Of a DNA stretch of 64,000 bases, positions 6,646-63,744 are shown piece by piece (position 1 is the stretch's first letter; every line of letters starts with the position of its first letter). The notes beneath the pieces were generated by a model. That model had not been told where the DNA came from. It worked only from the letters and a program-made list of their open reading frames with translations, and ran no database searches. The position numbers were made by a program, and so were the translations under genes. This DNA comes from Sipunculus nudus (Eukaryota > Annelida > Sipuncula > Golfingiida > Sipunculidae), in assembly GCA_026874595.1 (NCBI GenBank), contig CM049309.1:75190426-75254425 (forward strand), written 5' to 3'.

Positions 6646-6649
6646 TCGG

Positions 6650-35530: not shown

Positions 35531-35534
35531 ATTA

Positions 35535-36155: not shown

Positions 36156-36159
36156 ACCT

Positions 36160-36925: not shown

Positions 36926-36929
36926 ATAG

Positions 36930-38560
36930 TTCTAGTTCATGTCATTTTTAAGGAATTAAGAAAGATATAACTATAAAATTATAATGGATAGAAAGGACTG
37001 ATAAGCATTCCTATGATAAATGGTCGGTGATTCCACATTGGCTGTATTAACCTGGAAGGAAGGACGGAGCAGTGACACCCCACACCCCCTACATGAGACT
37101 GGTAATGCTCTGCAAAAGACAAAGACACCAACTCATCGGGCTTTTGTATCTGTCTACAACTAAAGGAAGATACAGTAAGTACCTTGTGCAAACAAGCTAT
37201 GTGCAAGGGGACACAGATTCCAACCTGACTGTTTCAGGTCCACCTCCGCTGAGGTTAAAGGGACAATAATTTAATAATGTAAGTGGTGAGGCATTTTGTT
37301 GGAACAAGCCCATAGGGTTTTAGAAAGTGATGGATTGAAGGGTTTATATTTAGAAGTAGAAAGATATATATCCTTTAAAATATACAGTTGACGACAGTGA
37401 AACGGATTTTAAATTTAAGCTGGTGTATTGTTTTCTCATTGTGTTCTACAACCGGTCCCTCCGAGTTGCCGGATTTGTTCATAGACTTCGGCAGGTACCT
37501 TCCTTGAATTCTTTGCACAAAGACCAAAACATTGAAACCTTTCGCTTCTGTTACAAGGAAGTTAATGATAAACTGTACGCTCTCCATTTCTAAATAATGG
37601 TGACTTACCATTTATAAGAAGACACGCCAGGGATGGCACAGAAAAGCAGTTGACATATCCTCCTTCAGAGGTTGATTATGTAACATTTATGAAGGGGTCG
37701 TCAGGGTTGATCAAAATAATCAGCTGTACAACTCGGGGCGAAAAAGTGTCAAATGGTGGAAAAGGATGTTCTACCATATGTAGAAACTTCAACAAGAAAA
37801 TCGGCAGGCTGATAATCCAACGGGACTGGATAATAAGGGGCTTTTACCAACATATGATGACACCATCCATGACTGCGAGTATGCAACCAGATGATTGCAC
37901 ATACCCAAGCAAATCAGGGGATAACGAGACCAGCTTTTGACAGCCCCGCCCACTTCACCCCAAATCCACGCATACATATCATGTGTGAAAAATGCCAGTT
38001 GACTGTGTGTATAACTACAGGAATAAAGTGTTTTTATATATAAAAATATAAATATAAATAATATATATATATTATCTTACCTACAGACAGTACTGGGAGT
38101 ACAAGAATAAATCACAACTATTAAAAATATATTGAATGAGGAGTGGCAAACATATTTAAAGGGTTTGCGTTTGCTGGAAATAGTTTTATTTTTTATCTGT
38201 ATTGGCGACTTCCATCTGCGGTTGATGGCTAGTTAGAGGATTCTATGGTTTGGTATTGTTCCACATTCTCTTCTGCTTCTTCAAATGAACAGGTCTTCAT
38301 CTGATTTTGTTTGTTTTTCTGGTTCACAAGTGCTGTGTGGCTGTTTGCTTGCTTGGCGAGTCTGAATAACAGCAGTAGCAGTCAGTCATGATATATTGAC
38401 CAATAAATGAGAGTATGAAGGATAATAGTTTATCAATTTTATCAATTAAATGTAAAATGGCAGGGAGATTACCGGTAAATACATAGTTTTCAACCATTGA
38501 TGCTGGTTTATGTCTGATGGCAATTAAAACCATTAAAACTTTCCTTAGTCACATTTGTTA
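36930..38560. other. Unassigned region with two coding-like frames
   Basis: A minus frame at 37375-37611 (MESVQFIINFLVTEAKGFNV, then LVFVQRIQGRYLPKS) and a plus frame at 37650-37940 (MTYPPSEVDYVTFMKGSSG) look more protein-like than chance, but match nothing I know and lack splice context. A short (TA)-rich patch lies at 38035-38070. Confidence 0.25.
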
Positions 38561-38563
38561 ATT

Positions 38564-39414
38564 GTATCCGCCAAAACAGAGTTTTGCGGATGCTGTTTTC
38601 AGCTTGACGCCGCCACCGCCGAGTAGGTGTCCGGGGAACTCCTCCGTAACCGCTGGGCGGAATTTTACGAAACCCGGGATTATGTTCGGGTCACACGTGA
38701 ACTGCTGCGCCCCGATTTTGTTTTGACCTCTGACCTTTCCTCTGCACTCTGCGTCCATCTGTGCGTCTGTTTTGAAACATTTACCCACATATCTCGGGAA
38801 CCGTTTGACCGATCCGGAAAATTTTTTGCACAAATGTAGCCCTTGGATAGCTTTATAACATACATAAAAATGGTGGCGCCACCTGCAACCATTTTTGCAC
38901 AGTATCCATCTGTTTATCTGCAATGGGATAAAATCACTCATATCTCTGCATTGGTTGGACTTATCCACCTGAAATTTTGCATGTGTATACATCCTGGACA
39001 GCTTTCTTGATTTTAAGACAGGTGGCGCCACCTACATTCACGTTTACGCTGCAGACATCCAAGCTTATACCTCGGGAACCGTTTGACCGATTGGGCCAAA
39101 ATTTTGCATGTATATAGATCTCAATAATTCTTTATCATACGCTAAACTGGTGGCGACACCTGCAACCATTTTTGCACAGCGTCCGTCTGTATGTCTGCCA
39201 TAGGATAAAATCACTCATATCTCGGCAGTGGTTCGACTTTTTGCATTTGTATACAACTTTGATAGCTTTCTGGATTTTGTGGTAGGTGGCACAACCTACA
39301 TACACATTTAGGCTGCAGACATCCATGCTAATATGCAACATACCTCACTTTATTTCCCCTTGTTACTCAATCCATGCCTCACTTCACCCGTCCCACTCTG
39401 ATTTCGGCGGATAC
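38564..39414. mobile_element. ~850-bp TIR element with internal GGTGGCGCCACC satellite
   Basis: GTATCCGCC at 38564-38572 is matched by GGCGGATAC at 39406-39414, with the following AAA also mirrored. Between them run alternating units of roughly 150 and 140 bp. Each holds a phrase like CTCGGGAACCGTTTGACCGA or GGTTGACTTATCCACCTGAA and a GGTGGCGCCACCT palindrome (38873, 39021, a degraded one near 39147). The same units form longer arrays at 43600-44700 and 51500-53130. No transposase. The structure, a short TIR with a central satellite, is like bivalve non-autonomous elements that seed satellite DNA. Confidence 0.6.
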
Positions 39415-39732
39415 ACGTAGTCGCTTGTCGACTACCCGTATTCTTGTTTATATAAATGCACTGTCACCATCCTGCAAGGCTGTATACCTGAGTATGCATC
39501 ATCCTTAGCTTTCAACCCTTCGGTGATCAGATGTTTCTCATATAGGCCGTTAACACGAGCCTGACTGTTACATTACGCAATCTTCTTACGTAGACGATAA
39601 TTTCTTTTTAAATCCCTCTCTACGTCCTCATGCCGCAGATGTAATCTGTCAAATCTGAACTTGATCATGATCGGGTAGGAGGCATGTGTGGCCCTGCAAT
39701 TATACAGTTCAGATTGAAGAATACATTGTGGT

Positions 39733-39879
39733 AATCCCCACCACCTTCACACGTTATACCTCCTAACCAACAAATTATCTCGATCCCCACCAACTTCACA
39801 CGTTATACCTCCTTACCAACATATTATCTCAATCCCCACCAACTTCACACGTTATACCTCCTTACCAACAGATTATTAC
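39733..39879. repeat. 49-bp tandem repeat x 3
   Basis: Units start at 39733, 39782 and 39831 with ATCCCCACCAACTTCACACG. The two periods are exactly 49 bp. The third unit runs into text resembling the 40490-40610 part of the CGCCCGTC element, so the array may have grown from that element. Confidence 0.9.
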
Positions 39880-40057
39880 GATCGAGTTCGATTAAGGGCA
39901 AAGTCAACGCATATTAATAAGGTCACGGGTCGCCAGGCTACATCCGACTTAACTTACTTGAAAAATTGGAAACCATTAACTTTATTAAATATTTTATACT
40001 AATTACAAAATTATAACAAAAAGCCTAGCTAACAGGAAAAAAAGTGTTTTAACAGAG

Positions 40058-40256
40058 TTATTTCACGAAGACCAGACCGGTTTTATGAAAGAAAGATACA
40101 GGTGAAGACATAAATAAGATTACTAGTTTAATGAGATATGCAGATGAAAATAAATTTAATACAGTAGATTTCGAAAAATCGTTCGAATACATAAACCTAT
40201 ACGAACTTGTAAACAACCTGTTTGAAATGCCAGTGCACAATAAAATGTATATATAA
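40058..40256 (+). pseudogene. L1/Tx1-type LINE RT scrap
   Basis: The plus frame reads LFHEDQTGFMKERY and, after one frameshift, GEDINKITSLMRYADENKF, then VDFEKSFEYINLYELVN, to a stop at about 40256. DQTGF.K.R followed by a block with VDFEKAFD is the signature of L1/Tx1-clade reverse transcriptases. The second catalytic box is missing, so this is a short dead fragment. It ends 170 bases before the duplicated unit. Confidence 0.7.
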
Positions 40257-40437
40257 CTTGTATATCGCATGCTGACATTTCATGTCTGCTGGTAATCATC
40301 GTTATTTGATTACACCGATCAACCTTATCATGCATTAATAATCGGAGGGGACTGACCACAATTGAAATGCGAGTCGTATACTCATGATCAGCCTGCGTAT
40401 AGCATAAAAGAAAAAAAAAATACTGGGGTGATTATTA

Positions 40438-40735
40438 TTATACGCCCGTCGTATTATGGTATACCCAACATTAACGTTTAGTGTCGCCGCGATATCTTAC
40501 CTGGGCTTTGATGGATTTTCCCCAACTACTTACCAACAGGTTATCTCGACCGATTTTGAATATGGGCAAAATCCACGCATATTTAATGAGGTCACGGGTC
40601 ACTGGGGTACTTTGTGGTGTCGCCGCGATATATAACGCAGAATATGAAGGACTTTGATGAAACTTCGATTTAATGAGGTCAGAGGTCACCGCACTTTGGA
40701 GGCACCGGGATGACAAAAATCCTGTAGGTTTTAAT
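40438..40735. mobile_element. Truncated CGCCCGTC element at the left edge of unit 1
   Basis: TATACGCCCGTCGTATTATGGTAT here matches the left part of the complete element at 42275. It includes GTCGCCGCGATA and GGTCACGGGTCAC phrases and ends soon after a perfect AGGTCA-G-AGGTCA at 40676-40688. No right end follows. The copy in unit 2 is at 48323-48620. Confidence 0.6.
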
Positions 40736-41265
40736 GAAACTCATACATACTTACCAGTAGAGTAACACATCAGTTCATCTATTGCGAACATAATTGCGAA
40801 ATGTTTGCACTCACAATGGAAAATTTGAAGATCATCATTTCACTAATTTCTTCACAACTGCAAAAATAACAAAATAGCAGCAAATAAGTAAAAAATGCAA
40901 TACGGATATACATTGTTGCCAAAAACAGCAGATAACGTATACAGATACATAATGCCATTTATGTGTTAGTAAGTACACTTCAGTATTCCCCAGGACCACT
41001 TTCTTCTTCTGGCACAAACATTTACTTCATACAGCTAGTTCGACATTGTCCGCACGTTGCAGAGCAGTTAAGTTGGTTTCGTCTGCAGATGCATCGAGCT
41101 GTAGCAGAATCTCCTTTACAGTTGCAGTTGTATTAGACAGGCTTTAATAGTTCACTAGGAGTAGGTTGTAGGTCATACACCATTCACTTCATCTGCCCCT
41201 CAGTGACGGTACATCCCAATTCCTCTGGACTGAGTTCTGTACCTTTCCTTTGTTATACCTGGTAT

Positions 41266-41523
41266 TTAGCCGCTACACCAGTACGTGGTGGGAAATGAGG
41301 CCCAACAACTGAACAACCTTGAGCCTCCTTTTCGCAGAATCTCATCAGGAGCATCACAAGGATGTCCATCGTATACACTTTTCTTGCGAGTTTTTCTAGA
41401 GTTTGGTGCCATGGACTTTTCACTTAGCACATAGGTCATAACATCAGCAACACATATCTCTTGCAAGGCCTCTTGATGACGCATAAGTGGAACTCCTTTA
41501 TTAGAACAAATAAGTAAACCCAA
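41266..41523 (-). pseudogene. 85-codon open frame, unknown, present in both duplicate units
   Basis: The minus frame reads MGLLICSNKGVPLMRHQEAL and later SVYDGHPCDAPDEILRKGG. It is protein-like and identical in unit 2 (49151-49408), which only reflects the young duplication. I do not recognise it. It lies in the only part of the unit not obviously made of repeats (about 40740-42270), which otherwise holds no clear feature. Confidence 0.3.
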
Positions 41524-42274
41524 CTTTGATGTTTATGTATTTATGAAGCAGCAATTAAGATAAAGGTTAAAGAAATCAAACATGAAACAAATAACTCAAA
41601 GTTAACCTCTCAATTTATAATAACAATGATAAAATTGTGGAAATTTTCTTATCAAAATGCGTGAGGTTTCGTGTCATTCATCGAAATCACACAAGTAATT
41701 TCGCTTCTGGTTTCAAAGTCAGAGCAAAACATGGCTAGAATTGAAACAGTGCTTGGGTTTCATCCGTGCTTGTTATAATTCATACAAAGTATGAACAAAG
41801 TAGGGCATTCGAACATGTAAAACGTTATACCTGACACTTGTCGTATCACTGTTGTTAAAATTATTTCCGTGGAACCTTTTACCATTAGAGGCGCCTGATC
41901 TACTGCGAATAAGCGATTAAAGAAACCTTGAAAAGGAATATAGCTAACCAGACATAAATGCCAGGATTTACAATACTTGAATACAATATTTACCTGTTGT
42001 GATACATGACTGTAGGCTGTTCTTTTAAAAAGTTCCTCTACCTAGATTAATGTAGATTTTTGGTATATTAATCAGGAAAAGTTTTAGAAAAAAAAACACT
42101 GAAATTATTTATTTTCCAATTTGTGGCGGGTTGGCTGGATATATTGGCAGATGGCCACCTTAGTCTCTACCACTCTATTTGGGCGAAAACCTTTTGTACG
42201 TTATTTGACAGGTCCAAAGAGCTTTCACCGGAAACCCCATTCTTTTGTTAGGTGATCTTTCTGCACCATTTTTT

Positions 42275-42756
42275 AAACGCCCGTCATATGACGGTTGTAT
42301 TATGGTATACCAACCGTACGTCCGTCGGTTTCAGTCTCGCCGCGATAATTTACCGGGGCTTTGATAGATTTTCACCAAACTCGCCATAGTTTATAACCAA
42401 CTGATTACCTCGCCCCAGTTCGATTATGGGCAAAATATAACAAGTTCACGGGTCAACAGGCTACTTTGCGTTGTCGCCACGATAAATTACGAAGAAAATG
42501 AAGGATTTTGATAAAACTCATCAGAAATGTTAATAAATAAAACAGTCGCCTAATTTCGATTTCCAGCAAAATCCACGCTTATTTAATGAGGTCAGAGGAA
42601 CACTAGAGTGACATACCAAAAATCCTATGGATTTTTATGAAACTCATTATACATATTTACCAATAAAGTTTTATTACCAATTAATTACATTCTTATTAAA
42701 AATCACGCATATTTAATTAGGTCAGAGGTCACCAGATACACGACGGGCGTATTATG
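42275..42756. mobile_element. ~480-bp CGCCCGTC...GACGGGCG element
   Basis: The left end AAACGCCCGTC and the right end GACGGGCGTATTATG are inverted over about ten bases. Just inside the left end is a perfect 14-bp palindrome, CCGTCATATGACGG (42281-42294). It contains AGGTCA-G-AGGTCA at 42719-42731 near the right end. Non-coding. The copy in unit 2 is at 50160-50641. Confidence 0.6.
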
Positions 42757-42778
42757 CACGTTTGCGGTGCTCTTTTTT

Positions 42779-44901
42779 TAGCGAACCTGTGAGCTTATGC
42801 GATGGCGCAGCGTCGTCCGTCCGTCGTAAGCCGTCCGCCGTCCAGGGCTGGCTTTCCGCCGTCCATGGCTGTAAGTCAGAAACTGTCGGAACTAGCAGCT
42901 CCAAATTACATGTAAGAATTCATCTCATGTGAAACTTGGTGCCCTGGAACTTATTATTGGGTATCTGCATTAATTTAGATTTTATAGAGAAAAAGCTTTA
43001 AAACCTTTAAAAATCTTCTTCTCTGAAACTGTCCAGCCAAATTGTCCAATATTTCACAGAAATGATCCCTGGAACAATCTCTCTCAAGTTTGTTCGAATG
43101 GTTCCAGTTCGGAGATTTTTGGCCGAGCTACAGGAGGTTGAACTTAGTCATCTGTCCAAAAAAGCTCACTAAAATTAAAATCTCAGAAACGGCTAGAGCT
43201 ATTATGACCAAATTTTATACCAATGTTTGTCACATATGTCATATCTGATTTTGAGGTATTGGTGGCGCCACCTACATTGATGTGTTTTTTACAAGCGAAA
43301 ATGTAATTTTAAACTCTTCTAGCTTATACACTGATTTATGATGAAACTGTTCAGCTGATTGGTTTAAACTTTACAAGAATTATTCTACGGTAGGGTTCTG
43401 CCAGTTTTATAAGAAACGATTGGGTAAATACAGTTTTAAAAAAGCATTGTAGCCAATTGAAAAAGGCTTTCTGTATCTGAAAACAGATTTGACTTCATGC
43501 AGCCAAGTCAAGGGGTCACTCAGTACAAACAGGTGGGGTCCAGACATCACCATGGCAACTGACCTGGCTCTAGGGGGGTGACTAGACAATGTGTCTAGAC
43601 GTCTAGACACAGCGTATCTCGGGAACCGTTTGACCGATCAGGCTAAAAAGTTTGCACAAATGTAGCCCTTTGATAGCCTTATAACACACACTAAAAATGG
43701 GGGCGCCACCTGCAACCATTTTTGCACAGCGTCCATCTGTTCATCTGCCTTGGGATAATATTACTCATATCTAAGCAGTGGTTTGACTTATCCACCTGAA
43801 ATTTTTCAGATTTATACATCCTGGACAGCTTTCTCGATTTTGACAGGTGGCGCCACCTACATTGACATTTACTTTGTAGACATCCAAGCTCATATCTTGG
43901 GAACTGTTTGACCGATTGGGTCAAACTTTTGCATGTGTATAGATCTTACATAGCTCTTCATCATAGGCAAAACTGGTGGTACCACCTGCAACCACTTATG
44001 CACAGCGTCCATCTGTTCATCCACCTTTGGATAAAATCACTCATATCTCAGCAGTGGTTTGACTTATCCACCTGACCGATTGGGTCAAACTTTTGCATGT
44101 GTATAGATCTTACATAGCTCTTCATCATAGGCAAAACTGGTGGTACCACCTGCAACCACTTATGCACAGCGTCCATCTGTTCATCCACCTTTGGATAAAA
44201 TCACTCATATCTCAGCAGTGGTTTGACTTATCCACCTGAAATTTTGCAGTTTTATACATCCTGGACAGGTTTCTCTAATGATATGACAGGTGTCGCTCAT
44301 ACATTCACCTTTACTCTGCAGACATCCAAGCTCATATCTCGGGAACCGTTTGACCGTTAAGGCCAAAATTTTGCATGTGTATAGATCTCACATAGCTCTT
44401 CATCATAGGCAAAACTGGTGGTGCCACCTGCAACCATTTATGCACAGCGTCCATCTGTTCATCTGCCTTAGGTAAAAATCACTCATATCTCAGCAGTGGT
44501 TTGACTTTTCCACTTGAAATTTTGCAGGTTTATACATCCTGGACAATTTTCTCGATTTTATGACAGGTGGCACCACCTACATTGACTTTTAAGCTGCAGA
44601 CATCCATGCTAATATGCAACAAACCACGCTCTATTCCCCTTGCCACTTAATCAATGCCTCACTTCACCCGTCCCACTCTGATTTCTGCTGATACACATAG
44701 TGGCTTGTCGACTACCCATATTCTGGTTTTAAAATGTCCTAGTCCGAAACTTGCAGGTCAGAAACGTCCATTTTGCTGAAATCATAATTACTTGGGTAGA
44801 TATGCAGGACTTAGGAGGATCAATATTAAATTTTAAAAATAAACCTCCATTCATACTCCTTAACTTTGCACAGGTTCGCATTAGGCCTGAAGGCCTTGTT
44901 C
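42779..44901. mobile_element. GCGAACCTGTG TIR element with internal satellite, copy 1
   Basis: AGCGAACCTGTGAGC starts at 42780. The inverted end CACAGGTTCGCATTA lies near 44869-44883 and is followed by AGGCCTGAAGGCCT. Inside are GTCCGTC-rich text, a region shared with 60120-60560 (TTCTTCTCTGAAACTGTCCA, GCCAAATTGTCCAATATTT), and from 43600 an array of alternating ~150/140-bp units with GGTGGCGCCACC or GGTGGTACCACC centres. The array ends near 44710 with text like the end of the 38564 element, so one element may be nested in the other. Other copies: 50664-53340 and 60094-62525. Confidence 0.65.
43590..43611. repeat. 22-bp perfect palindrome
   Basis: TGTGTCTAGAC is immediately followed by its exact reverse complement. 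It sits at the left edge of the satellite array, and an identical copy is at 51475-51496. Confidence 0.95.
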
Positions 44902-45147
44902 ATATATTAAACATTGTATCTGGCTTTACAGGAAATTCATATCATATATGGCATCACCCATTTCAACCATGCATGTTATTGTATATTTTTATAACGAAAT
45001 TCTATTTTGCATATTATTTAATATACATGTGCCCTATTAAAATAAATATATATATTACTGATTATTCTTGAGGGTTAATTCTTTATATATTGTGTGAGTG
45101 TTACTTTACTCATTTTCTTTACTTTCTTTACTAAATTTGACTTATAG

Positions 45148-45655
45148 ACTGCTTTTATTTTATCTATTATGCTTCTGTTATTTCGACTCATAGACTGCTT
45201 TTATTTTATCTTTTATGCTTCTGTTATTTTCCACTCATAGACTGCTTTTATTTTATCTATTATGCTTCTGTTATTTTTACTCATAGACTGCTTTTATTTT
45301 ATCTATTATGCTTCTGTTATTTCCAGTCATCGACTGCTTTTATTTTATCTATTATGCTTCTGTTATTTCCAGTCATCGACTGCTTTTATTTTATCTGTTA
45401 TGCTTCTGTTATTTCCAATCATAGACTGCTTTTATTTTATCTTTTATGCTTCTGTTATTTCCACTCATAGACTGCTTTTATTTTATCTATTATGCTTCTG
45501 TGATTTCCACTCATAGACTGCTTTTATTTTATCTATTATGCTTCTGTGATTTCCACTCATAGACTGCTTTTATTTTATCTATTATGCTTCTGTTATTTCC
45601 ACTCATGGACTGCTTTTATTTTATCTATTATGCTTCTGTTATTTTATCTATTACC
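45148..45655. repeat. 46-bp minisatellite, 11 units (unit 1)
   Basis: Units of 46 bp begin ACTGCTTTTATTTTATCTAT and continue ATGCTTCTGTTATTTCCACTCATAG. Starts fall at about 45148, 45193, 45240 and so on to 45607. The array abuts the 3' end of the adjacent minus-strand LINE, so it may have grown from that element's tail. The repeat in unit 2 spans about 53587-54092. Confidence 0.95.
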
Positions 45656-45659
45656 CATT

Positions 45660-47643
45660 CTCTCTTCCACCTTAAAGGGATTGCATATACTCGCCTCATG
45701 TATTGCATTTTCTTAATATTTTTTTAGAAATATATCTTATAATATTTGTATTCTTATAATATTTGTATATATATTTATCTTATCTGTTCTCTGTGGGACA
45801 GAAAGACTTTTTTTCCATTTTTTGGTTAATATCTTTTATACTTGTTATTCCAGCTGTATGCAAAGTTTTATTGTAAACTATTTTATTTCATATTTTTTAC
45901 ATGAGAGTTGAAAATATTACTTCATTTAGAATTTCATCACAGACGTTTACATGTTTAAAGTTATATTTAGCCCAAATATCAAATACTTCTCTCCAAAATA
46001 GATGACATGTACTGCTGAAAGGCAAATATCATCAGATATAAATTACATTTGAGTATAAGGGATCCTAATTTTTAAGCTGAACATTGACTATTTGTCTCCA
46101 TCCCTAATCTACTGGTCCCAAAACAAATCTTTTAATCCATCCTATTTTTAATGCTTCCTTTTTTATTTTAGATGTTTAGTCCCCCTTGATCAACTGGTGC
46201 AATTAAGGTTTTTATTCCTTTCCACTACATATAAACTTGTACAGCAGAATTGCAATTTCTTTTAAATAATTTATTGAAGGACTTGGGGGGGGGGGGGGGG
46301 CTTAAATGCATAGGTTAACTCTGATAAAATGTTAGCTTTTATTACAGCAATTTTTCCCGAGAATGACATTGTTCTTGTTGCCAATATATTTAAAATTGCT
46401 TTAATTTTACTTTATATTTCTTTATAACTAAAATATATCAATTATTTATAAGTAAATAAGGAGATAGAGGGCATCCTTGTCTAACACTACGCGTTACTGA
46501 AAAATAGTTGGTTGCCCAACTGTTATTTCACAGATGCTGATGTCTAGGTATAATATATTTATCAATTTCTTAAATTCAGTTAACTAGTTGCAAATAGTTC
46601 TGAATGCGAGTCCATTCTAAAAAGTCAAAGGGGTTTTCAAAGTCGATTGACAAAAGGTAACTCTACACCGTAATGGTGAGTTTGGTCTGAATTTATCAAA
46701 GTGTGTAGCACTGATTTTAAGTCTATTAGCTAATGTTTTGGCAATAATCTTGTAATCAGTGTTTAACACTGAATGAGGGCGCCACTTCTTTAAAACTAAT
46801 GTCTTTATCTTACTTTGGTATTGGGCAGAAGATGCCTTGGCGCATAGTGGTTGGCAAGGATCAAGTTTTAAAAGTATATTTTATTGCATTAATATAGTAT
46901 TCTTTCATATAATCCCAAAAGACTTTGTAAAATTCAGCAGGGAAGCCATCTGGACCTGGTGTTTTGTTCATCTGTAGAGATTTCAATGTGGTAAATAGTT
47001 CTATTGGCTTGATTTCTTTGTCACACATTTGTTCTTCCTGTGACAGGACATTAAAGTTATCTAATGATTGATAATTATCTTAAGAATTTTCCTGGTTAAC
47101 TGTTATTGTATATAGAGATTTATAAAATTTTACCTGTTCTTCAAGAATATCTTTTGTATCACAGAGTATTTTGCCAGTTTTATCTTTCAGATTATGAATT
47201 GATTTTTGTTCGTAGTTTCTTTTTTCCATATTTAAAAAGTATTTTGTGTGTGTGTTGCCTTCTGTATACGATTTACATCATACAATAGCGGCTGCTATCA
47301 CCTTCTCCACAAATTGTTTGCGTTTATTAACTGTAATTTCCCCCATCTTAATTTATCTGCATTACCCTTCGTTAGGTTATATTGGTATTTAGCTTTATAC
47401 ATCTCTCGTTCTCAGGCTATCATTTTGTTATTACAAGTTTTCTTTTTGTTTGCAGCAAATGATATTGTTTTCCTCTAATTTGGCATTTTATTGTGTCACA
47501 CAATAGGGCTGGATTTGCATCTTTGTTGTTTAATACTGTTAAATGAATATCGATTCTATTTTGTGGTTTACATAGTTTTCATCTTCAGGTAGTAAACAGT
47601 TGAGTTTCCAATAGCCCAGTCTTCTTTTATGATTATTTAAGCT

Positions 47644-47704
<61 letters not shown>

Positions 47705-48115
47705 GAGATCCGTTTTATAGGCCGGCTCAATGTCCGAAAAGTCTATGAAGATATGTTAGCTTTCACTTATTTAAAAAATCTAGACGAGAGAAAAGTGGTT
47801 TGGGTTGTACAGATGCCAGGGTTGTACCAATGCCATGAGCATTTTAATAAACCAGGATGTTGTGTACTCCAAATATCTGCAAGTTGTAAAAATTCTGCCC
47901 ATTGTAAGATTATTTCCCTTGCTTGCTCCCGAGATTGCAAATTTGCCCCCTATTTATCAATAGCTGGGTTAATAACAACATTGAAATCCCCTCCAATTAT
48001 TAATTTATCTGTTTTCAATAGTGACAGTGTTTTTATTAAATTAGTGAAGAATTCTGGTTCGTCTTTATTTGGACCATACAGATTTACCAATGTAACCTTG
48101 TGAATTCCTATTATT
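45660..48115 (-). pseudogene. L1/Tx1-type LINE with endonuclease and RT motifs (unit 1)
   Basis: On the minus strand 48103-47753 reads VTLVNLYGPNKDEPEFF and LIIGGDFNVVINPAID, the GGDFN box of an apurinic-type endonuclease. Near 46980-46800 is NKTPGPDGFPAEFYKVFWDY, the first RT block. Near 46470 is SVRQGCPLSPYL, the block before the catalytic aspartates. Near 46200-46080 is APVDQGGLN, typical of the post-RT region. Many stops and frameshifts, and a (TA)n run at 47648-47703 between endonuclease and RT, disable it. The endonuclease N-terminus is missing. A poly-G run (46285-46300) interrupts the C-terminal part. Confidence 0.8.
47648..47703. repeat. (TA)n microsatellite, unit 1
   Basis: Uninterrupted TA repeat. 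The copy in unit 2 (about 56086-56137) is 4 bases shorter, one of the few differences between the units. Confidence 0.95.
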
Positions 48116-49150
48116 ACATGAAGTATAATAAATCAATTTTATATCCTCCCGTTACCACCAAAAAAAAGTGTCCAGTTAAACTGCACCCACTTGAGACGAC
48201 CGCCGGCGAAATCACCGCAGAGGTAAGACTTCTGATTTTTTTTATTTACCACTTAATGTAATGCGGACCGGCTTGAGAAGGGTAGTAATTGAATACACTG
48301 CTCCATTTTTCATTGATTATTATTATACGCCCGTCGTATTATGGTATACCCAACATTAACGTTTAGTGTCGCCGCGATATCTTACCTGGGCTTTGATGGA
48401 TTTTCCCCAACTACTTACCAACAGGTTATCTCGACCGATTTTGAATATGGGCAAAATCCACGCATATTTAATGAGGTCACGGGTCACTGGGGTACTTTGT
48501 GGTGTCGCCGCGATATATAACGCAGAATATGAAGGACTTTGATGAAACTTCGATTTAATGAGGTCAGAGGTCACCGCACTTTGGAGGCACCGGGATGACA
48601 AAAATCCTGTAGGTTTTAATGAAACTCATACATACTTACCAGTAGAGTAACACATCAGTTCATCTATTGCGAACATAATTGCGAAATGTTTGCACTCACA
48701 ATGGAAAATTTGAAGATCATCATTTCACTAATTTCTTCACAACTGCAAAAATAACAAAATAGCAGCAAATAAGTAAAAAATGCAATACGGATATACATTG
48801 TTGCCAAAAACAGCAGATAACGTATACAGATACATAATGCCATTTATGTGTTAGTAAGTACACTTCAGTATTCCCCAGGACCACTTTCTTCTTCTGGCAC
48901 AAACATTTACTTCATACAGCTAGTTCGACATTGTCCGCACGTTGCAGAGCAGTTAAGTTGGTTTCGTCTGCAGATGCATCGAGCTGTAGCAGAATCTCCT
49001 TTACAGTTGCAGTTGTATTAGACAGGCTTTAATAGTTCACTAGGAGTAGGTTGTAGGTCATACACCATTCACTTCATCTGCCCCTCAGTGACGGTACATC
49101 CCAATTCCTCTGGACTGAGTTCTGTACCTTTCCTTTGTTATACCTGGTAT

Positions 49151-49408
49151 TTAGCCGCTACACCAGTACGTGGTGGGAAATGAGGCCCAACAACTGAACA
49201 ACCTTGAGCCTCCTTTTCGCAGAATCTCATCAGGAGCATCACAAGGATGTCCATCGTATACACTTTTCTTGCGAGTTTTTCTAGAGTTTGGTGCCATGGA
49301 CTTTTCACTTAGCACATAGGTCATAACATCAGCAACACATATCTCTTGCAAGGCCTCTTGATGACGCATAAGTGGAACTCCTTTATTAGAACAAATAAGT
49401 AAACCCAA
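49151..49408 (-). pseudogene. 85-codon open frame, unknown, copy in unit 2
   Basis: This is the same open frame as at 41266-41523, unchanged. See that entry. Confidence 0.3.
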
Positions 49409-50663
49409 CTTTGATGTTTATGTATTTATGAAGCAGCAATTAAGATAAAGGTTAAAGAAATCAAACATGAAACAAATAACTCAAAGTTAACCTCTCAATT
49501 TATAATAACAATGATAAAATTGTGGAAATTTTCTTATCAAAATGCGTGAGGTTTCGTGTCATTCATCGAAATCACACAAGTAATTTCGCTTCTGGTTTCA
49601 AAGTCAGAGCAAAACATGGCTAGAATTGAAACAGTGCTTGGGTTTCATCCGTGCTTGTTATAATTCATACAAAGTATGAACAAAGTAGGGCATTCGAACA
49701 TGTAAAACGTTATACCTGACACTTGTCGTATCACTGTTGTTAAAATTATTTCCGTGGAACCTTTTACCATTAGAGGCGCCTGATCTACTGCGAATAAGCG
49801 ATTAAAGAAACCTTGAAAAGGAATATAGCTAACCAGACATAAATGCCAGGATTTACAATAATTGAATACAATATTTACCTGTTGTGATACATGACTGTAG
49901 GCTGTTCTTTTAAAAAGTTCCTCTACCTAGATTAATGTAGATTTTTGGTATATTAATCAGGAAAAGTTTTAGAAAAAAAAACACTGAAATTATTTATTTT
50001 CCAATTTGTGGCGGGTTGGCTGGATATATTGGCAGATGGCCACCTTAGTCTCTACCACTCTATTTGGGCGAAAACCTTTTGTACGTTATTTGACAGGTCC
50101 AAAGAGCTTTCACCGGAAACCCCATTCTTTTGTTAGGTGATCTTTCTGCACCATTTTTTAAACGCCCGTCATATGACGGTTGTATTATGGTATACCAACC
50201 GTACGTCCGTCGGTTTCAGTCTCGCCGCGATAATTTACCGGGGCTTTGATAGATTTTCACCAAACTCGCCATAGTTTATAACCAACTGATTACCTCGCCC
50301 CAGTTCGATTATGGGCAAAATATAACAAGTTCACGGGTCAACAGGCTACTTTGCGTTGTCGCCACGATAAATTACGAAGAAAATGAAGGATTTTGATAAA
50401 ACTCATCAGAAATGTTAATAAATAAAACAGTCGCCTAATTTCGATTTCCAGCAAAATCCACGCTTATTTAATGAGGTCAGAGGAACACTAGAGTGACATA
50501 CCAAAAATCCTATGGATTTTTATGAAACTCATTATACATATTTACCAATAAAGTTTTATTACCAATTAATTACATTCTTATTAAAAATCACGCATATTTA
50601 ATTAGGTCAGAGGTCACAAGATACACGACGGGCGTATTATGCACGTTTGCGGTGCTCTTTTTT

Positions 50664-53340
50664 CAGCGAACCTGTGAGCTTATGCGATGGCGCAGCGTCG
50701 TCCGTCCGTCGTAAGCCGTCCGCCGTCCAGGGCTGGCTTTCCGCCGTCCATGGCTGTAAGTCAGAAACTGTCGGAACTAGCAGCTCCAAATTACATGTAA
50801 GAATTCATCTCATGTGAAACTTGGTGCCCTGGAACTTATTATTGGGTATCTGCATTAATTTAGATTTTATAGAGAAAAAGCTTTAAAACCTTTAAAAATC
50901 TTCTTCTCTGAAACTGTCCAGCCAAATTGTCCAATATTTCACAGAAATGATCCCTGGAACAATCTCTCTCAAGTTTGTTCGAATGGTTCCAGTTCGGAGA
51001 TTTTTGGCCGAGCTACAGGAGGTTGAACTTAGTCATCTGTCCAAAAAAGCTCACTAAAATTAAAATCTCAGAAACGGCTAGAGCTATTATGACCAAATTT
51101 TATACCAATGTTTGTCACATATGTCATATCTGATTTTGAGGTATTGGTGGCGCCACCTACATTGATGTGTTTTTTACAAGCGAAAATGTAATTTTAAACT
51201 CTTCTAGCTTATACACTGATTTATGATGAAACTGTTCAGCTGATTGGTTTAAACTTTACAAGAATTATTCTACGGTAGGGTTCTGCCAGTTTTATAAGAA
51301 ACGATTGGGTAAATACAGTTTTAAAAAAGCATTGTAGCCAATTGAAAAAGGCTTTCTGTATCTGAAAACAGATTTGACTTCATGCAGCCAAGTCAAGGGG
51401 TCACTCAGTACAAACAGGTGGGGTCCAGACATCACCATGGCAACTGACCTGGCTCTAGGGGGGTGACTAGACAATGTGTCTAGACGTCTAGACACAGCGT
51501 ATCTCGGGAACCGTTTGACCGATCAGGCTAAAAAGTTTGCACAAATGTAGCCCTTTGATAGCCTTATAACACACACTAAAAATGGGGGCGCCACCTGCAA
51601 CCATTTTTGCACAGCGTCCATCTGTTCATCTGCCTTGGGATAATATTACTCATATCTAAGCAGTGGTTTGACTTATCCACCTGAAATTTTTCAGATTTAT
51701 ACATCCTGGACAGCTTTCTCGATTTTGACAGGTGGCGCCACCTACATTGACATTTACTTTGTAGACATCCAAGCTCATATCTTGGGAACTGTTTGACCGA
51801 TTGGGTCAAACTTTTGCATGTGTATAGATCTTACATAGCTCTTCATCATAGGCAAAACTGGTGGTACCACCTGCAACCACTTATGCACAGCGTCCATCTG
51901 TTCATCCACCTTTGGATAAAATCACTCATATCTCAGCAGTGGTTTGACTTATCCACCTGACCGATTGGGTCAAACTTTTGCATGTGTATAGATCTTACAT
52001 AGCTCTTCATCATAGGCAAAACTGGTGGTACCACCTGCAACCACTTATGCACAGCGTCCATCTGTTCATCCACCTTTGGATAAAATCACTCATATCTCAG
52101 CAGTGGTTTGACTTATCCACCTGAAATTTTGCAGTTTTATACATCCTGGACAGGTTTCTCTAATGATATGACAGGTGTCGCTCATACATTCACCTTTACT
52201 CTGCAGACATCCAAGCTCATATCTCGGGAACCGTTTGACCGTTAAGGCCAAAATTTTGCATGTGTATAGATCTCACATAGCTCTTCATCATAGGCAAAAC
52301 TGGTGGTGCCACCTGCAACCATTTATGCACAGCGTCCATCTGTTCATCTGCCTTAGGTAAAAATCACTCATATCTCAGCAGTGGTTTGACTTTTCCACTT
52401 GAAATTTTGCAGGTATTTTACATCCTTGACAGCTTTCTCGATTTTATGACAGGTGGCGCCACCTACAGTCATGTTTACTCTGCAGACATCCAAGCTCATA
52501 TCTCGGGAACCGTTGACCGATTGGGCCGAAATTTTGCTTGTGTATAGATCTCACATAGCTCTTCATCATAGGCAAAACTGGTGGTGCTATCTGCAACCAC
52601 TTATGCACAGCGTCCATTTGTTCATCTGCCTTAGGTTAAAATCACTCCTATCTCAGCAGTGGTTTGACTTATCCACCTGAAATGTTGCATGTATTGTACT
52701 TCCTTGACAGCTTTCTCGATTTTATGACAGGTGTCGCCACCTACATTCACATTTACTCTGCAGACATCCAAGCTCATATTTTGGGAACTGTTTGACCGAT
52801 TAGGCCAAAATTTTGCATGTGTATAGATCTCACATAGCTCTTCATTATAGGCAAAACTGGTGGTGCCATCAATCACTTATGCACAGCATCCATCTGTTGA
52901 TCTGCCTTGGGATAAAATCATTCATATCTCGGCAGTGGTTTGACTTTTCCACTTGAAATTTTGCAGGTTTATACATCCTGGACAATTTTCTCGATTTTAT
53001 GACAGGTGGCACCACCTACATTGACTTTTAAGCTGCAGACATCCATGCTAATATGCAACAAACCACGCTCTATTCCCCTTGCCACTTAATCAATGCCTCA
53101 CTTCACCCGTCCCACTCTGATTTCTGCTGATACACATAGTGGCTTGTCGACTACCCATATTCTGGTTTTAAAATGTCCTAGTCCGAAACTTGCAGGTCAG
53201 AAACGTCCATTTTGCTGAAATCATAATTACTTGGGTAGATATGCAGGACTTAGGAGGATCAATATTAAATTTTAAAAATAAACCTCCATTCATACTCCTT
53301 AACTTTGCACAGGTTCGCATTAGGCCTGAAGGCCTTGTTC
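50664..53340. mobile_element. GCGAACCTGTG TIR element, copy 2 with expanded satellite
   Basis: This matches the element at 42779-44901 except for an extra 554 bp of satellite between about 52415 and 52970. The added part consists of two more pairs of the alternating units, similar but not identical to their neighbours (for example GGTGTCGCCACC and a truncated CCATCAATCAC). It was thus not copied from the immediately adjacent units without change. Confidence 0.7.
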
Positions 53341-53586
53341 ATATATTAAACATTGTATCTGGCTTTACAGGAAATTCATATCATATATGGCATCACCCAT
53401 TTCAACCATGCATGATATTGTATATTTTTATAACGAAATTCTATTTTGCATATTATTTAATATACATGTGCCCTATTAAAATAAATATATATATTACTGA
53501 TTATTCTTGAGGGTTAATTCTTTATATATTGTGTGAGTGTTACTTTACTCATTTTCTTTACTTTCTTTACTAAATTTGACTTATAG

Positions 53587-54092
53587 ACTGCTTTTATTTT
53601 ATCTATTATGCTTCTGTTATTTCGACTCATAGACTGCTTTTATTTTATCTTTTATGCTTCTGTTATTTTCCACTCATAGACTGCTTTTATTTTATCTATT
53701 ATGCTTCTGTTATTTTTACTCATAGACTGCTTTTATTTTATCTATTATGCTTCTGTTATTTCCAGTCATCGACTGCTTTTATTTTATCTATTATGCTTCT
53801 GTTATTTCCAGTCATCGACTGCTTTTATTTTATCTGTTATGCTTCTGTTATTTCCAATCATAGACTGCTTTTATTTTATCTTTTATGCTTCTGTTATTTC
53901 CACTCATAGACTGCTTTTATTTTATCTATTATGCTTCTGTGATTTCCACTCATAGACTGCTTTTATTTTATCTATTATGCTTCTGTGATTTCCACTCATA
54001 GACTGCTTTTATTTTATCTATTATGCTTCTGTTATTTCCACTCATGGACTGCTTTTATTTTATCTATTATGCTTCTGTTATTTTATCTATTA
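53587..54092. repeat. 46-bp minisatellite, 11 units (unit 2)
   Basis: It has the same unit and the same number of units as at 45148-45655. The array is stable between the duplicates, unlike the satellite at 52415-52970. Confidence 0.95.
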
Positions 54093-54094
54093 CC

Positions 54095-56080
54095 AATTCT
54101 CTCTTCCACCTTAAAGGGATTGCATATACTCGCCTCATGTATTGCATTTTCTTAATATTTTTTTAGAAATATATCTTATAATATTTGTATTCTTATAATA
54201 TTTGTATATATATTTATCTTATCTGTTCTCTGTGGGACAGAAAGACTTTTTTTCCATTTTTTGGTTAATATCTTTTATACTTGTTATTCCAGCTGTATGC
54301 AAAGTTTTATTGTAAACTATTTTATTTCATATTTTTTACATGAGAGTTGAAAATATTACTTCATTTAGAATTTCATCACAGACGTTTACATGTTTAAAGT
54401 TATATTTAGCCCAAATATCAAATACTTCTCTCCAAAATAGATGACATGTACTGCTGAAAGGCAAATATCATCAGATATAAATTACATTTGAGTATAAGGG
54501 ATCCTAATTTTTAAGCTGAACATTGACTATTTGTCTCCATCCCTAATCTACTGGTCCCAAAACAAATCTTTTAATCCATCCTATTTTTAATGCTTCCTTT
54601 TTTATTTTAGATGTTTAGTCCCCCTTGATCAACTGGTGCAATTAAGGTTTTTATTCCTTTCCACTACATATAAACTTGTACAGCAGAATTGCAATTTCTT
54701 TTAAATAATTTATTGAAGGACTTGGGGGGGGGGGGGGCTTAAATGCATAGGTTAACTCTGATAAAATGTTAGCTTTTATTACAGCAATTTTTCCCGAGAA
54801 TGACATTGTTCTTGTTGCCAATATATTTAAAATTGCTTTAATTTTACTTTATATTTCTTTATAACTAAAATATATCAATTATTTATAAGTAAATAAGGAG
54901 ATAGAGGGCATCCTTGTCTAACACTACGCGTTACTGAAAAATAGTTGGTTGCCCAACTGTTATTTCACAGATGCTGATGTCTAGGTATAATATATTTATC
55001 CATTTCTTAAATTCAGTTAACTAGTTGCAAATAGTTCTGAATGCGAGTCCATTCTAAAAAGTCAAAGGGGTTTTCAAAGTCGATTGACAAAAGGTAACTC
55101 TACACCGTAATGGTGAGTTTGGTCTGAATTTATCAAAGTGTGTAGCACTGATTTTAAGTCTATTAGCTAATGTTTTGGCAATAATCTTGTAATCAGTGTT
55201 TAACACTGAATGAGGGCGCCACTTCTTTAAAACTAATGTCTTTATCTTACTTTGGTATTGGGCAGAAGATGCCTTGGCGCATAGTGGTTGGCAAGGATCA
55301 AGTTTTAAAAGTATATTTTATTGCATTAATATAGTATTCTTTCATATAATCCCAAAAGACTTTGTAAAATTCAGCAGGGAAGCCATCTGGACCTGGTGTT
55401 TTGTTCATCTGTAGAGATTTCAATGTGGTAAATAGTTCTATTGGCTTGATTTCTTTGTCACACATTTGTTCTTCCTGTGACAGGACATTAAAGTTATCTA
55501 ATGATTGATAATTATCTTAAGAATTTTCCTGGTTAACTGTTATTGTATATAGAGATTTATAAAATTTTACCTGTTCTTCAAGAATATCTTTTGTATCACA
55601 GAGTATTTTGCCAGTTTTATCTTTCAGATTATGAATTGATTTTTGTTCGTAGTTTCTTTTTTCCATATTTAAAAAGTATTTTGTGTGTGTGTTGCCTTCT
55701 GTATACGATTTACATCATACAATAGCGGCTGCTATCACCTTCTCCACAAATTGTTTGCGTTTATTAACTGTAATTTCCCCCATCTTAATTTATCTGCATT
55801 ACCCTTCGTTAGGTTATATTGGTATTTAGCTTTATACATCTCTCGTTCTCAGGCTATCATTTTGTTATTACAAGTTTTCTTTTTGTTTGCAGCAAATGAT
55901 ATTGTTTTCCTCTAATTTGGCATTTTATTGTGTCACACAATAGGGCTGGATTTGCATCTTTGTTGTTTAATACTGTTAAATGAATATCGATTCTATTTTG
56001 TGGTTTACATAGTTTTCATCTTCAGGTAGTAAACAGTTGAGTTTCCAATAGCCCAGTCTTCTTTTATGATTATTTAAGCT

Positions 56081-56137
<57 letters not shown>

Positions 56138-56548
56138 GAGATCCGTTTTATAGGCCGGCTCAATGTCCGAAAAGTCTATGAAGATATGTTAGCTTTCACT
56201 TATTTAAAAAATCTAGACGAGAGAAAAGTGGTTTGGGTTGTACAGATGCCAGGGTTGTACCGATGCCATGAGCATTTTAATAAACCAGGATGTTGTGTAC
56301 TCCAAATATCTGCAAGTTGTAAAAATTCTGCCCATTGTAAGATTATTTCCCTTGCTTGCTCCCGAGATTGCAAATTTGCCCCCTATTTATCAATAGCTGG
56401 GTTAATAACAACATTGAAATCCCCTCCAATTATTAATTTATCTGTTTTCAATAGTGACAGTGTTTTTATTAAATTAGTGAAGAATTCTGGTTCGTCTTTA
56501 TTTGGACCATACAGATTTACCAATGTAACCTTGTGAATTCCTATTATT
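54095..56548 (-). pseudogene. L1/Tx1-type LINE with endonuclease and RT motifs (unit 2)
   Basis: This is a duplicate of the dead LINE at 45660-48115, with the same stops and the same internal TA and poly-G runs (shorter by 4 and 2 bases). One substitution in the endonuclease region changes a CAATGCC to CGATGCC near 56262. Confidence 0.8.
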
Positions 56549-56839
56549 ACATGAAGTATAATAAATCAATTTTATATCCTCCCGTTACCACCAAAAAAAA
56601 GTGTCCAGTTAAACTGCACCCACTTGAGACGACCGCCGGCGAAATCACCGCAGAGGTAAGACTTCTGATTTTTTTTATTTACCACTTAATGTAATGCGGA
56701 CCGGCTTGAGAAGGGCAGTAATTGAATACACTGCTCCATTTTTCAGCTGGATTGGGAGCCAAACACAAACTGATTTTTTGGCCATCATAAGATGCTGTAC
56801 TTTGCTGTTTATATAGTCTGCTGTTTAGATAGTCTGTTA

Positions 56840-57125
56840 TTACGCTCTATTTCCACCGCAGTCCAGTATAAATTTTATCAGTATTCTTCCTATTAATATT
56901 TTTAGAGACTTTCTATACATTGCTGAGTCTTCCATAGTTGGCAGAACTAACTTTACACTCAGGTTTTCTGCGCTTCCTAAGGGTTCGCTGTCATCAAAGC
57001 TACTAAGATCGGCAGTCCAGGCAGACGCAAAGAAATGATAATCACGGTTTCTATTGTTCCTTCACATATTAATGGTGGTAACATATATGTCCAAATTGTC
57101 CTCATTTATTTTCCCAACCTTTGCT
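56840..57125 (-). pseudogene. DUF6589-like fragment
   Basis: The minus strand reads GKINEDNLDIYVTTINM, a stop, then RNRDYHFFASAWTADLSSFD and later ENLSVKLVLPTMEDSAMYRK and LKILIGRILIKFILD before TAA at 56842-56840. The order GDN.DI....H, then N.DYH.F, then a leucine/proline block with LP...D, then K.LVGRIL matches proteins carrying DUF6589, as I recall them from multicopy families in bivalves and cnidarians. Only the middle of the domain is present and there is an in-frame stop. It lies 95 bases from the edge of the large duplication and outside it. Confidence 0.55.
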
Positions 57126-57286
57126 TCTGATGTCTGTTGGATTATGCAGCCTTCACTATGCTAAGCAGTGTCTTTCAACAGATTCCTCCTGTTCTCGTGT
57201 GATAGGGGTAATGCAAACCGTGTTCAAGGTCAACAGCTAAAATATATTCCAATCTACCATTAATTGTAAAGTATATTATTATGCAT

Positions 57287-57589
57287 TCATTCCCGTTTTT
57301 TTAGCATATTCAGCTTAATATACAAATAAACAATAAAAATATTTTCACTGGGAACAGACTCTTTTCGTATTGTACAGCATGTTTTCACACGACAGTTGCA
57401 TTCTTTGCAGGCCGGTTTATTATTTTTACGCGAGAAAGTTATTTGATTCTGTTGTTGTTTATGATATAGATGCCATAGAATGGCTCGGAGCGAAGGTGTG
57501 TATGTTAGTGGTCGTATGAAGATGAGTATTTGTTTCTCACGAAGCCACCCATCTTTTATTTTGTCAACGGATCGGGCAACTGAACACAA
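57287..57589 (-). pseudogene. 100-codon open frame, cysteine-bearing, unknown
   Basis: The minus frame starts MCSVARSVDKIKDGW and contains KPACKECNCRVKTCC, a CxxC-rich stretch. It is upstream of the DUF6589-like fragment on the same strand, separated by about 160 bases. It might be an earlier exon or domain of the same decayed gene, but spacing, frame and motif do not prove this. Confidence 0.3.
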
Positions 57590-57599
57590 TTAAGCTGAG

Positions 57600-57960
57600 T
57601 TTATAGGGCGCTCGGTATGCGAAAAAAATTCCAGTTTTTTTTTTTTAAAAAAAAGGGTCCAACCCAGGACTTATGAGTAATCCTTAAAAAATGTCACCAA
57701 GTGCGGAAGTAAGGCTCTCAGTCTGTAACCCTCAAAAACGGTCGCGGCGGTTGGAAGGGTGGGTCCGAATAAAATCACAGGTCATGGCGAGGTTCATTAG
57801 ACAGATCTACATCATTAAAAATAATGCTGAACCGCATGTTTTGGTTCAATAGGAGAAATCCTGCCGCAAAAGCAATGAAACAGCAATACAGGGTGATCAG
57901 GGAACCACAGGTTTTACATAGAAAAGGCAGAAATATTCAAGTTAAAATTGGGTTTGTTGA
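57600..57960. other. Unassigned stretch
   Basis: A poly-T/poly-A foldback-like tract lies near 57635-57654. A 79-codon plus frame at 57824-58063 is basic, without motif. Confidence 0.3.
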
Positions 57961-57964
57961 TGCA

Positions 57965-58175
57965 TGGGATCTATCGCTGTTACAGGGTTCATGGAACGAT
58001 TTCAGTGTTGTCTTTTTATCCACTGCACTGAAATGTACAAACATCTCGCCACTCAGTTTGTAGGTTTCAGTGTCACAGCTGGTCTTATTTAACTGAACGT
58101 GGTTTGTGAATATCAATCTCACAGCATGTCATGTTTACATGAAAGTGGTTTGAAATGTTAGGGTCACTGCTAGTC
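57965..58175. repeat. Dispersed repeat shared with 14775-15000
   Basis: TGGAACGATTTCAGTG, GCACTGAAATGT, TGTCACAGCTGG and GAACGTGGTTTGT occur in the same order as at 14775-15000. Confidence 0.6.
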
Positions 58176-58234
58176 TTGCTGTAACCAGAGAAATGTGACT
58201 TAGTCATATTATTGCATGTTCAAGTATCGAGTAT

Positions 58235-59045
58235 AATTGTTACGGAACCTAATATCAACAAATCACGTATTGGTGACGAACATAAATTTTGTAATGGGCA
58301 TAAAAAAATCAGATTCTGTAACACTAGGCAGCTTGAAATGTCTAAGGGAATGAATAAAGAGGTCAGTGGTTATTTGTTAATAATTGATTATAATTTTATT
58401 CTTAAAACAATCCTAACATTACATTACACTAAATCAATATAATTTCACAGTATAACAACAGTAAAACAGCAAATCAATACAGGTATATAAATAAAGTGTA
58501 CAGTACCTGGATACCACCACTGTCACAGCGATAGCAAGTCCTTTATAACGTACAACCCAGATGAACAGTTCACATAAATCTTCCCAGAGAATAACAGTCC
58601 AGTTCATTCACAAAATCAATCCGTTGTAATCTCAAAGTGAAGTTCTTGTTATAATCCCGAAAGCAAACTTAAGACTATATAAGATCCGTCACAAATTTGG
58701 AAGAAAATCTATAATTGCTGCACTTATCGGAAAAGGTCTACAAACTGACACACACACTCTTCTGTGTCCGCTGGAATATAGCTCTCCTCTCTCTTTGGCT
58801 CTAAAACACAGCCCCTTATTTATAACTTTCACCTCAAGTCGAGAACTTTCCATTTCTCGAACAATCCAAAGAACCTAACATGATACACAGTACACGCGTT
58901 ACAGGAAACATCTAGAACAACATCGCTGTGTCTCTACATATTAGGGTTCACATGTGGGCCGGCCACGCGAGAAAGCCCCATGCTAGCATGACCGCTGTTT
59001 ACATGTGATACCCCACGCGTGGGCCGGGCTACGCCGTCATTGCAA
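58235..59045 (-). mobile_element. LTR-like or promoter-like region, minus strand
   Basis: Read on the minus strand there is a GC-rich, palindrome-rich leader (59045-58940), then TTATAAATAAGG at 58825-58813 (a TATA box), then a pyrimidine/purine-alternating 5'-UTR-like stretch. An AATAAA follows within about 470 bases. The end near 58241 reads GTTCCGTAACA. This order (TATA, then AATAAA, ending in ...ACA) resembles an LTR of a Gypsy-type element. No gag/pol is present on either side and I found no second LTR or target duplication. A solo LTR or a host promoter are the alternatives. Confidence 0.25.
58979..59023. repeat. Pair of perfect 12-bp palindromes
   Basis: CATGCTAGCATG lies at 58979-58990 and CCCACGCGTGGG at 59012-59023, with GGCCGGCC and two ACATGT sites close by. 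The density of perfect palindromes in 80 bases is unusual. Confidence 0.9.
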
Positions 59046-59099
59046 CAGACAACGCTAGCGCTGAACGAACACACTGCTGCATACAATAAAACAGACATC

Positions 59100-60090
59100 T
59101 ATAACAATAACAGATGATTGTTTTTATGTATAATTTATTGTACATTGGTGTGGAGTATCATGTTTGGTTGGGAATTTAGGTTGGAGAGCACAGATGTCTC
59201 GTTTGATGTAAATTCGGTACGGTTGAAGACCGTGGTAACCGACCCTGTCTAGACGGTCAATATGGTTAAGTTGTTTGTTGTGGACTTAAAGGCCAAACAC
59301 CTGCTTAGTTTGCTTTTCTCGGGCGTTTATCTCTTGAGGCGGCATTTAATATTCATGTTTTTAGTGACAGTCGGCGAAGTAGAGAGAGATAATTGGCCAG
59401 AAGACGATCGGTACTTGTGACGTCACATGTAGCCGCGGTTGAGATGAAAATTGCTAAAATTTTCGCTACTAGTTGATACACAACTCAGACTACCTGTACT
59501 TTGCTTTCATGGTTAGGAAATACCCGTACCTTGAATAAGTACTCCAGGTGCAAGTGTGAAACTTGATATGGACATCAGTTCTGCCAAGTAAATGTACAGA
59601 GTTGTCACTTCATAACAGGGCAGTTACCTATCACAGACATGGGTAATTATTAAGCTGTCATCCCTGTAGCTTGTGAAGTGGATCGGGCCAGACCTAGTAG
59701 CATGCTGGCATACCTTCAACCTGTACATAGGTTGTTCACTGCTGCATTGTCATATATATAGGGTAACGTGAAAGGCTATGGATAGTGATGCATATGCCCC
59801 ATCTCGATTCTTGTTTCGACTATACAAAGACACTGGTGAAGGATAAATAAAGAATTAAAGAAAACACAGATTAAATCACTGATCTCTCAATGTAAGACTT
59901 CCTATTTAACATAAATTATTCCCCTTCTCAAGCGCCAAATGCATTTGCTCTTAATTATCGAAACATACCTCAGTGTTCATGTAATTTACATGTGTATTGT
60001 TACTTTTTATACTTATATAGGTGCCAATTTTAATATATGAATGACAGTATAATATTCTTATTTTAATAACATTGTAAACATTATCACTTT
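59100..60090. promoter_or_regulatory. Non-repetitive stretch with a perfect CRE
   Basis: TGACGTCA lies at 59418-59425, inside a locally GC-richer and apparently unique patch (59200-59450). No coding frame follows convincingly on either strand, so promoter function is only possible. 59700-60090 is AT-rich and empty. Confidence 0.25.
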
Positions 60091-60093
60091 TTT

Positions 60094-63120: not shown

Positions 63121-63151
63121 GAGAGGAGAGTTTTCTTACGGTGTGTGTGTT

Positions 63152-63322: not shown

Positions 63323-63324
63323 TC

Positions 63325-63740: not shown

Positions 63741-63744
63741 TTAT

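Follow-up and report, generated by a model that had tools for sequence, protein, structure and literature searches.

A gapless, near-identical 8-kb tandem repeat in Sipunculus nudus, probably a recent end-joined duplication of transposon-rich DNA

The 64,000-nt stretch of Sipunculus nudus DNA analyzed here (the window, numbered from its first base) corresponds to C4:75190426-75254425 of a 1.4265-Gb, 153-contig assembly (GCA_026874595.1; contig CM049309.1), and contains a block of roughly 8 kb that is present twice, head to tail and in the same orientation. Self-BLAST in direct orientation pairs 40429-44615 with 48314-52501 and 44073-48312 with 52514-56745, which defines copy A (40429..48312, plus strand, 7,884 bp) and copy B (48314..56745, plus strand, 8,432 bp) and bears out the coordinates given in an initial annotation of this DNA. 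That annotation had also estimated by eye that about eight bases differ, and global alignment of A with B returns the same count of substitutions, 8 in 7,878 aligned bp (0.10%), together with three length differences. When unrelated 200-bp flanks are included, the global alignment counts 102 substitutions, with 8 inside the unit. In copy A coordinates, the substitutions lie at 41976, 42733, 42779, 44976, 45656, 46564, 47829, and 48283, and the longest identical runs between them measure 1,712, 1,547, and 1,086 bp. The length differences comprise 554 bp (2 x 277) in a tandem array, which accounts for the unequal length of the two copies, a 2-bp step in a run of G, and a 4-bp step in a (TA)n tract, which reads (TA)28 in A (47648..47703) and (TA)26 in B (56085-56136). 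Neither the window nor the 20 kb to either side of it contains any N. The copies are direct, adjacent, and highly identical over multiple kilobases, as expected of a tandem segmental duplication.

Both edges of the unit are sharp. At the left breakpoint, flanking sequence ending in ..AATACTGGGG gives way to the start of the unit, TGATTATTATTATACGCC; at the right breakpoint, the end of the unit, ..CCATTTTTCA, is followed by GCTGGATTGG; and at the head-to-tail junction, ..CCATTTTTCA is joined to TGATTATTATTATACGCC through a single extra T (48313..48313) that fits neither edge. The breakpoints share 0 bp of homology, as the bases preceding them (..ACTGGGG and ..TTTTTCA) are unlike and those following them likewise, and a comparison of the 700 bp that flank each breakpoint to either side found one 18-bp match, on opposite strands. 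The initial annotation had pointed to TGATTATTATTAT as sequence shared at the junction and had proposed template switching or unequal exchange at a transposon edge. This motif, however, is simply the 13 bp with which the unit, and so each copy, begins, and does not represent homology between the parental ends. With no shared base and a 1-nt insertion, the junction fits neither unequal exchange nor microhomology-mediated template switching. Unequal exchange between homologous edge repeats was considered in its own right and rejected, given the lack of homology between the left and right breakpoints; a 75-bp stretch akin to that repeat does occur in the left flank (39858-39931), but without a counterpart at the right edge. 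A junction with 0-bp homology and one inserted nucleotide is the kind of product generally attributed to end joining. Because the breakpoints here lack homology and one T was inserted, the junction fits the end-joining type, as far as its bases can tell.

The largest difference between the copies lies within a tandem array with a period of 278 bp. The section present only in B is placed at 52378..52931 (plus strand), although its placement within a 37-bp identical tract is arbitrary. In a comparison over A 44200-44654, copy A is identical to B in one register as far as A 44529. Starting at A 44493, it is identical to B in a second register, shifted onward by 554 bp, and the two registers overlap in the 37-bp tract A 44493-44529. 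The array of A is therefore chimeric. As the additional 554 bp in B resemble no other part of either copy at more than 89%, A looks like a deletion derivative that lost two 277-bp units by exchange or slippage across the 37-bp tract. The opposite direction, expansion of the array in B, was ruled out on the grounds that none of the extra units closely copies another unit. The longer array of B would then more closely resemble the pre-duplication state, provided that A and B do not stem from different haplotypes.

This array forms the center of a putative HINE-type (non-autonomous Helentron) element, which occupies 42774..44905 in copy A and, with its longer array, 50659..53344 in copy B, both on the plus strand. 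The marks described for HINE elements include subterminal inverted repeats, a 3′ hairpin, an oligo-T boundary, and central tandem repeats (PMC7492417, PMC4067079). We found a counterpart to each of these. The subterminal inverted repeat GCGAACCTGTG spans 11 bp and is exact in both window copies and in two of the four relatives fetched from elsewhere in the assembly (L002 and L003), while that of the other two (L001 and L004) spans 8 bp; in a chance control with 500 random end pairs of 80 bp, one reached an 11-bp inverted repeat. The 3′ palindrome reads AGGCCTGTAGGCCT in 4/4 fetched copies and AGGCCTGAAGGCCT in both window copies. The 5′ boundary is TTTTTT in copy A and three of the four relatives, TTTGTT in L004, and TTTTTC in copy B. 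By these four features, the element would be assigned to the HINE type. Its left module and the best-scored relatives agree at 95-97% (for the whole query, the best 40 of 8,899 candidates), and the four fetched relatives range in length from ~2.7 to 4.7 kb, with arrays of differing lengths. Two further traces of this family lie outside the duplication. An isolated piece of the satellite array, without a match to an element end beside it, is found ~1 kb to the left (38788-39449), and a probable second, more diverged relative at 60089-62524 shows short matches to both ends and to parts of the left module and none to the array.

Much of the rest of the unit also derives from repeats. Its first ~330 bp belong to a high-copy interspersed repeat (40435..40763, plus strand; 48320-48648 in B) for which a first look returned 3,916 candidates, the best 40 of which were scored. 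The initial annotation placed the left edge next to a transposon end. This is plausible, as the probable end of the repeat, ..TTATTATACGCCC.., judged by eye from a minority of eight fetched members, falls within ~10 bp of the left breakpoint. Less favorable to the claim are the small number of such members and the BLAST starts of the eight, which lie at 40407, 40435, and 40451 and, for five of them, only at 40469-40477; the relative that starts at 40407 (L012) aligns 22 bp beyond the breakpoint. A second member of the same family (42269..42773, plus strand; 50154-50658 in B) directly precedes the HINE-type element. To the right of the element lies a probable fragment of a decayed non-long terminal repeat (non-LTR) retrotransposon on the minus strand (45066..48134, ending at 56567 in B), which is interrupted by a 46-bp minisatellite at 45140-45644. 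Its RVT_1 match is weak (E 0.0061; 16.7 bits against a Pfam cut-off of 29.6), its relatives elsewhere are ~65-86% alike, and it includes a GGDFN stretch, reading LIIGGDFNVVINPAID, which we recognize as endonuclease-like. The right edge of the unit lies 178 bp past this remnant, and the piece between the two has one relative among the matches listed, on C3 (82%); that match stops 21 bp short of the breakpoint.

Apart from the RVT_1 match, nothing was detected at E <=0.01, and hence no host protein domain, in a six-frame Pfam search of copy A, 35600-40428, and 56746-64000, a search that split or short exons could escape. The only stop-to-stop frames of at least 120 aa in the unit are those running through the (TA)n tract, one per copy. 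Judged from its sequence, the unit appears to be a patchwork of transposable elements, composed of edge-repeat pieces, the HINE-type element with its satellite array, and the non-LTR piece, and devoid of recognizable genes. We expect no function for its duplication. The window is repetitive outside the unit as well, with a 4-kb minisatellite of 58-bp period at 31529-35532 (~69 units by length, ~90% alike), imperfect direct repeats at 4428-6648 (offsets of ~0.5 and 1 kb, 82-85% alike), and a very common repeat of ~880 bp at 58232-59109 whose best 40 scored places are 84-90% alike.

Given such content, amplification by a transposon has to be considered, either because the whole 8-kb block is mobile or because the internal HINE-type element was read through by rolling-circle replication. 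The presence of that element inside the unit and the nearness of the left edge to a probable repeat end speak for such a mechanism. However, the edges of the unit lie 2.3 kb and 3.4 kb from the ends of the element, and neither a target-site duplication nor a terminal repeat pairing the two edges is visible by eye. Shared repeat families aside, the scored matches in the assembly include no third near-identical place, and this single location of the unit, searched in pieces, largely refutes its being a mobile element. We regard transposon-driven amplification as barely credible.

The assembly searches on which this point depends scored only the best 40 candidates per query. The unit was searched as 40200-41900, 41900-43650, 44616-47640, and 55800-57400, leaving out the array stretch 43651-44615, so that a missed copy is possible. 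Among scored matches, the searched pieces of the unit have two near-identical places in the assembly, each query holding flank has one full-length match, as does the right flank alone (57400-60000), and a query spanning the junction has one full-length match. No third copy of the searched pieces and no second copy of the flanks appeared among them. As a control, one 3-kb piece was taken from each of three of ten 20-kb samples, and each matched at full length only itself (3/3). A relative of the 58232-59109 repeat sits in one of these pieces (L023), as many places match both. There is, then, little sign of retained haplotypes in this assembly. The 136 contigs outside C1-C17 hold at most ~38 Mb (2.7%), a bound calculated from the sizes of 15 of the C1-C17 contigs, with C12 and C16 entered as lower bounds from match positions. 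The ten samples come from one fixed position on each of ten chromosomes. They also show that near-identical tandem copies are not unique to this locus, though they are too few for a rate: direct repeats of at least 400 bp at >=90% identity occur in 1/10. The positive sample contains a tandem array of five copies with a ~3.9-kb period, 99-100% identical in the six pairs listed. The other nine samples have no such repeats, and four of them contain 1 to 5 self-matches of at least 400 bp, all below 90%.

The initial annotation set a very recent tandem duplication against two haplotype segments joined by the assembler, and these remain the right pair of alternatives. In the latter case, the two haplotypes of one 8-kb locus, unlike in array length, would have been placed consecutively, creating a heterotype false duplication. 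The same annotation held that the copies differ far less than alleles would. Eight differences are indeed few, but the argument proves weaker than stated once it is put in numbers. In a two-sequence coalescent over 7,878 bp (20,000 replicates each), the probability of eight or fewer differences is 0.66-0.57 at an assumed diversity of 0.1%, 0.31-0.11 at 0.3%, 0.20-0.04 at 0.5%, 0.11-0.016 at 1%, and 0.054-0.008 at 2%, the first value of each range applying without recombination and the second with recombination at the rate of mutation. On these values, low divergence lends a duplication only moderate support, and next to none where diversity is low; for diversities of 0.3-1%, joined alleles would still yield the observed count with a probability of 0.31 to 0.016, depending on recombination. 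The differences in array length and microsatellites are typical of alleles, and errors of this kind are documented in published assemblies (PMC9516828, PMC2864568). The sharp ends with one extra base speak against such a join, and neither a third copy of the unit nor a second copy of the flanks was found among scored matches, with all three control pieces single at full length. Gaps between the members of a pair are described as among the primary marks of false duplications on the same scaffold (PMC9516828), and here no N separates the copies. Altogether, we consider a heterotype join unlikely, though it is the leading competitor.

The reading that we prefer, at a probability of about 75%, is a real and very recent germline tandem duplication of ~8 kb of transposon-rich DNA, formed by end joining; this figure and the gradings of the other origins are judgements. 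The sharp edges, the gapless junction of end-joining type, the divergence of 0.10%, the chimeric array of A, the single matches for junction and flanks, and the little sign of retained haplotypes all support it. Under this model, the junction would be present in the animal, and would have arisen from two lesions ~8 kb apart, the left one a break or a stalled fork close to where the interspersed repeat ends and the right one a second break. The end of the segment would have been joined to its start on the sister chromatid or on a re-replicated strand, without homology and with the addition of one T. Later, or already on the donor haplotype, A would have lost two 277-bp units across the 37-bp identical tract, and the copies would have gathered their eight substitutions. 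A variant of this scheme adds a circle, in which the 8-kb segment was excised, closed by end joining (TTCA-T-TGATT), and recombined into an intact copy of the locus. It predicts the structure observed, with one novel junction lacking homology and flanks that are otherwise intact, but requires an extra step to reach the same end product as the simpler model, and nothing favors the circle. We think this route very improbable; if it is counted in, an end-joined duplication of either sort becomes a shade more probable than the direct route taken by itself.

Several observations weigh against the preferred duplication model. The evidence comes from assembled sequence, and the gap criterion was drawn from older assemblies and from those based on continuous long reads (CLR), so that it may not apply here. 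Alleles are not rejected by low divergence on its own, and the array-length, (TA)n, and G-run differences are equally expected of two alleles or of local consensus errors. That the left breakpoint falls close to a repeat end, a point resting on few members, could be due to chance in such a repeat-rich genome. Lastly, the polarity of the substitutions is uneven. Five of the eight sites can be compared with fetched relatives. B is derived at 42733, where 8/10 alignments agree with A, and at 42779 (5/5), while A is derived at 45656, 46564, and 47829 (2/2 each). Left sites derived in B and right sites derived in A make, by our reckoning, a 1-in-16 pattern, from which we draw no inference.

If the duplication is real, it offers a young end-joined event that still reveals the order of changes, the loss of two array units having followed duplication. 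A more far-reaching proposal holds that the duplication is segregating, that its breakpoint was set by the end of the interspersed repeat, and that the array of the HINE-type element was the first site of divergence. We judge this conjunction improbable; if true, array deletion would outrun point mutation, and such arrays could be used as a fast clock, or act as a recombination trap, in young duplicates of this genome. The main value of the locus lies in caution and in a worked example, since near-identical tandem copies without a gap, even in a chromosome-scale assembly, may be taken for a duplication while the proof lies in the reads.

Parts of this structure have parallels in known systems. 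The HINE-type element shares the four marks given above with the oyster elements Cg_HINE and Pearl, though its repeat periods are 278 and 164 bp, compared with the predominantly 140-180 bp described for oyster HINE elements (PMC7492417). Heterotype false duplications, as characterized in PMC9516828, likewise present as near-identical neighboring copies with allele-like length differences, whereas the copies here are gapless and differ by very few substitutions. In clam transmissible cancer, a class of ~11-kb tandem duplications has been likened to those of human TP53/BRCA1-deficient tumors (PMC10663159); the resemblance extends to unit size and orientation only, as that class is somatic and genome-wide and ours is one case in an assembly, and we claim no membership in it. 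Tandem duplications that exist as standing variation in Drosophila likewise consist of adjacent copies in direct orientation that have diverged little or not at all, 81.3% of those reported (1,560/1,920) showing no divergence (PMC6380325). The present pair differs from these in its transposon-rich content and in being known from one assembly, and an ordinary recent tandem duplication of this known kind is the best reading of the locus.

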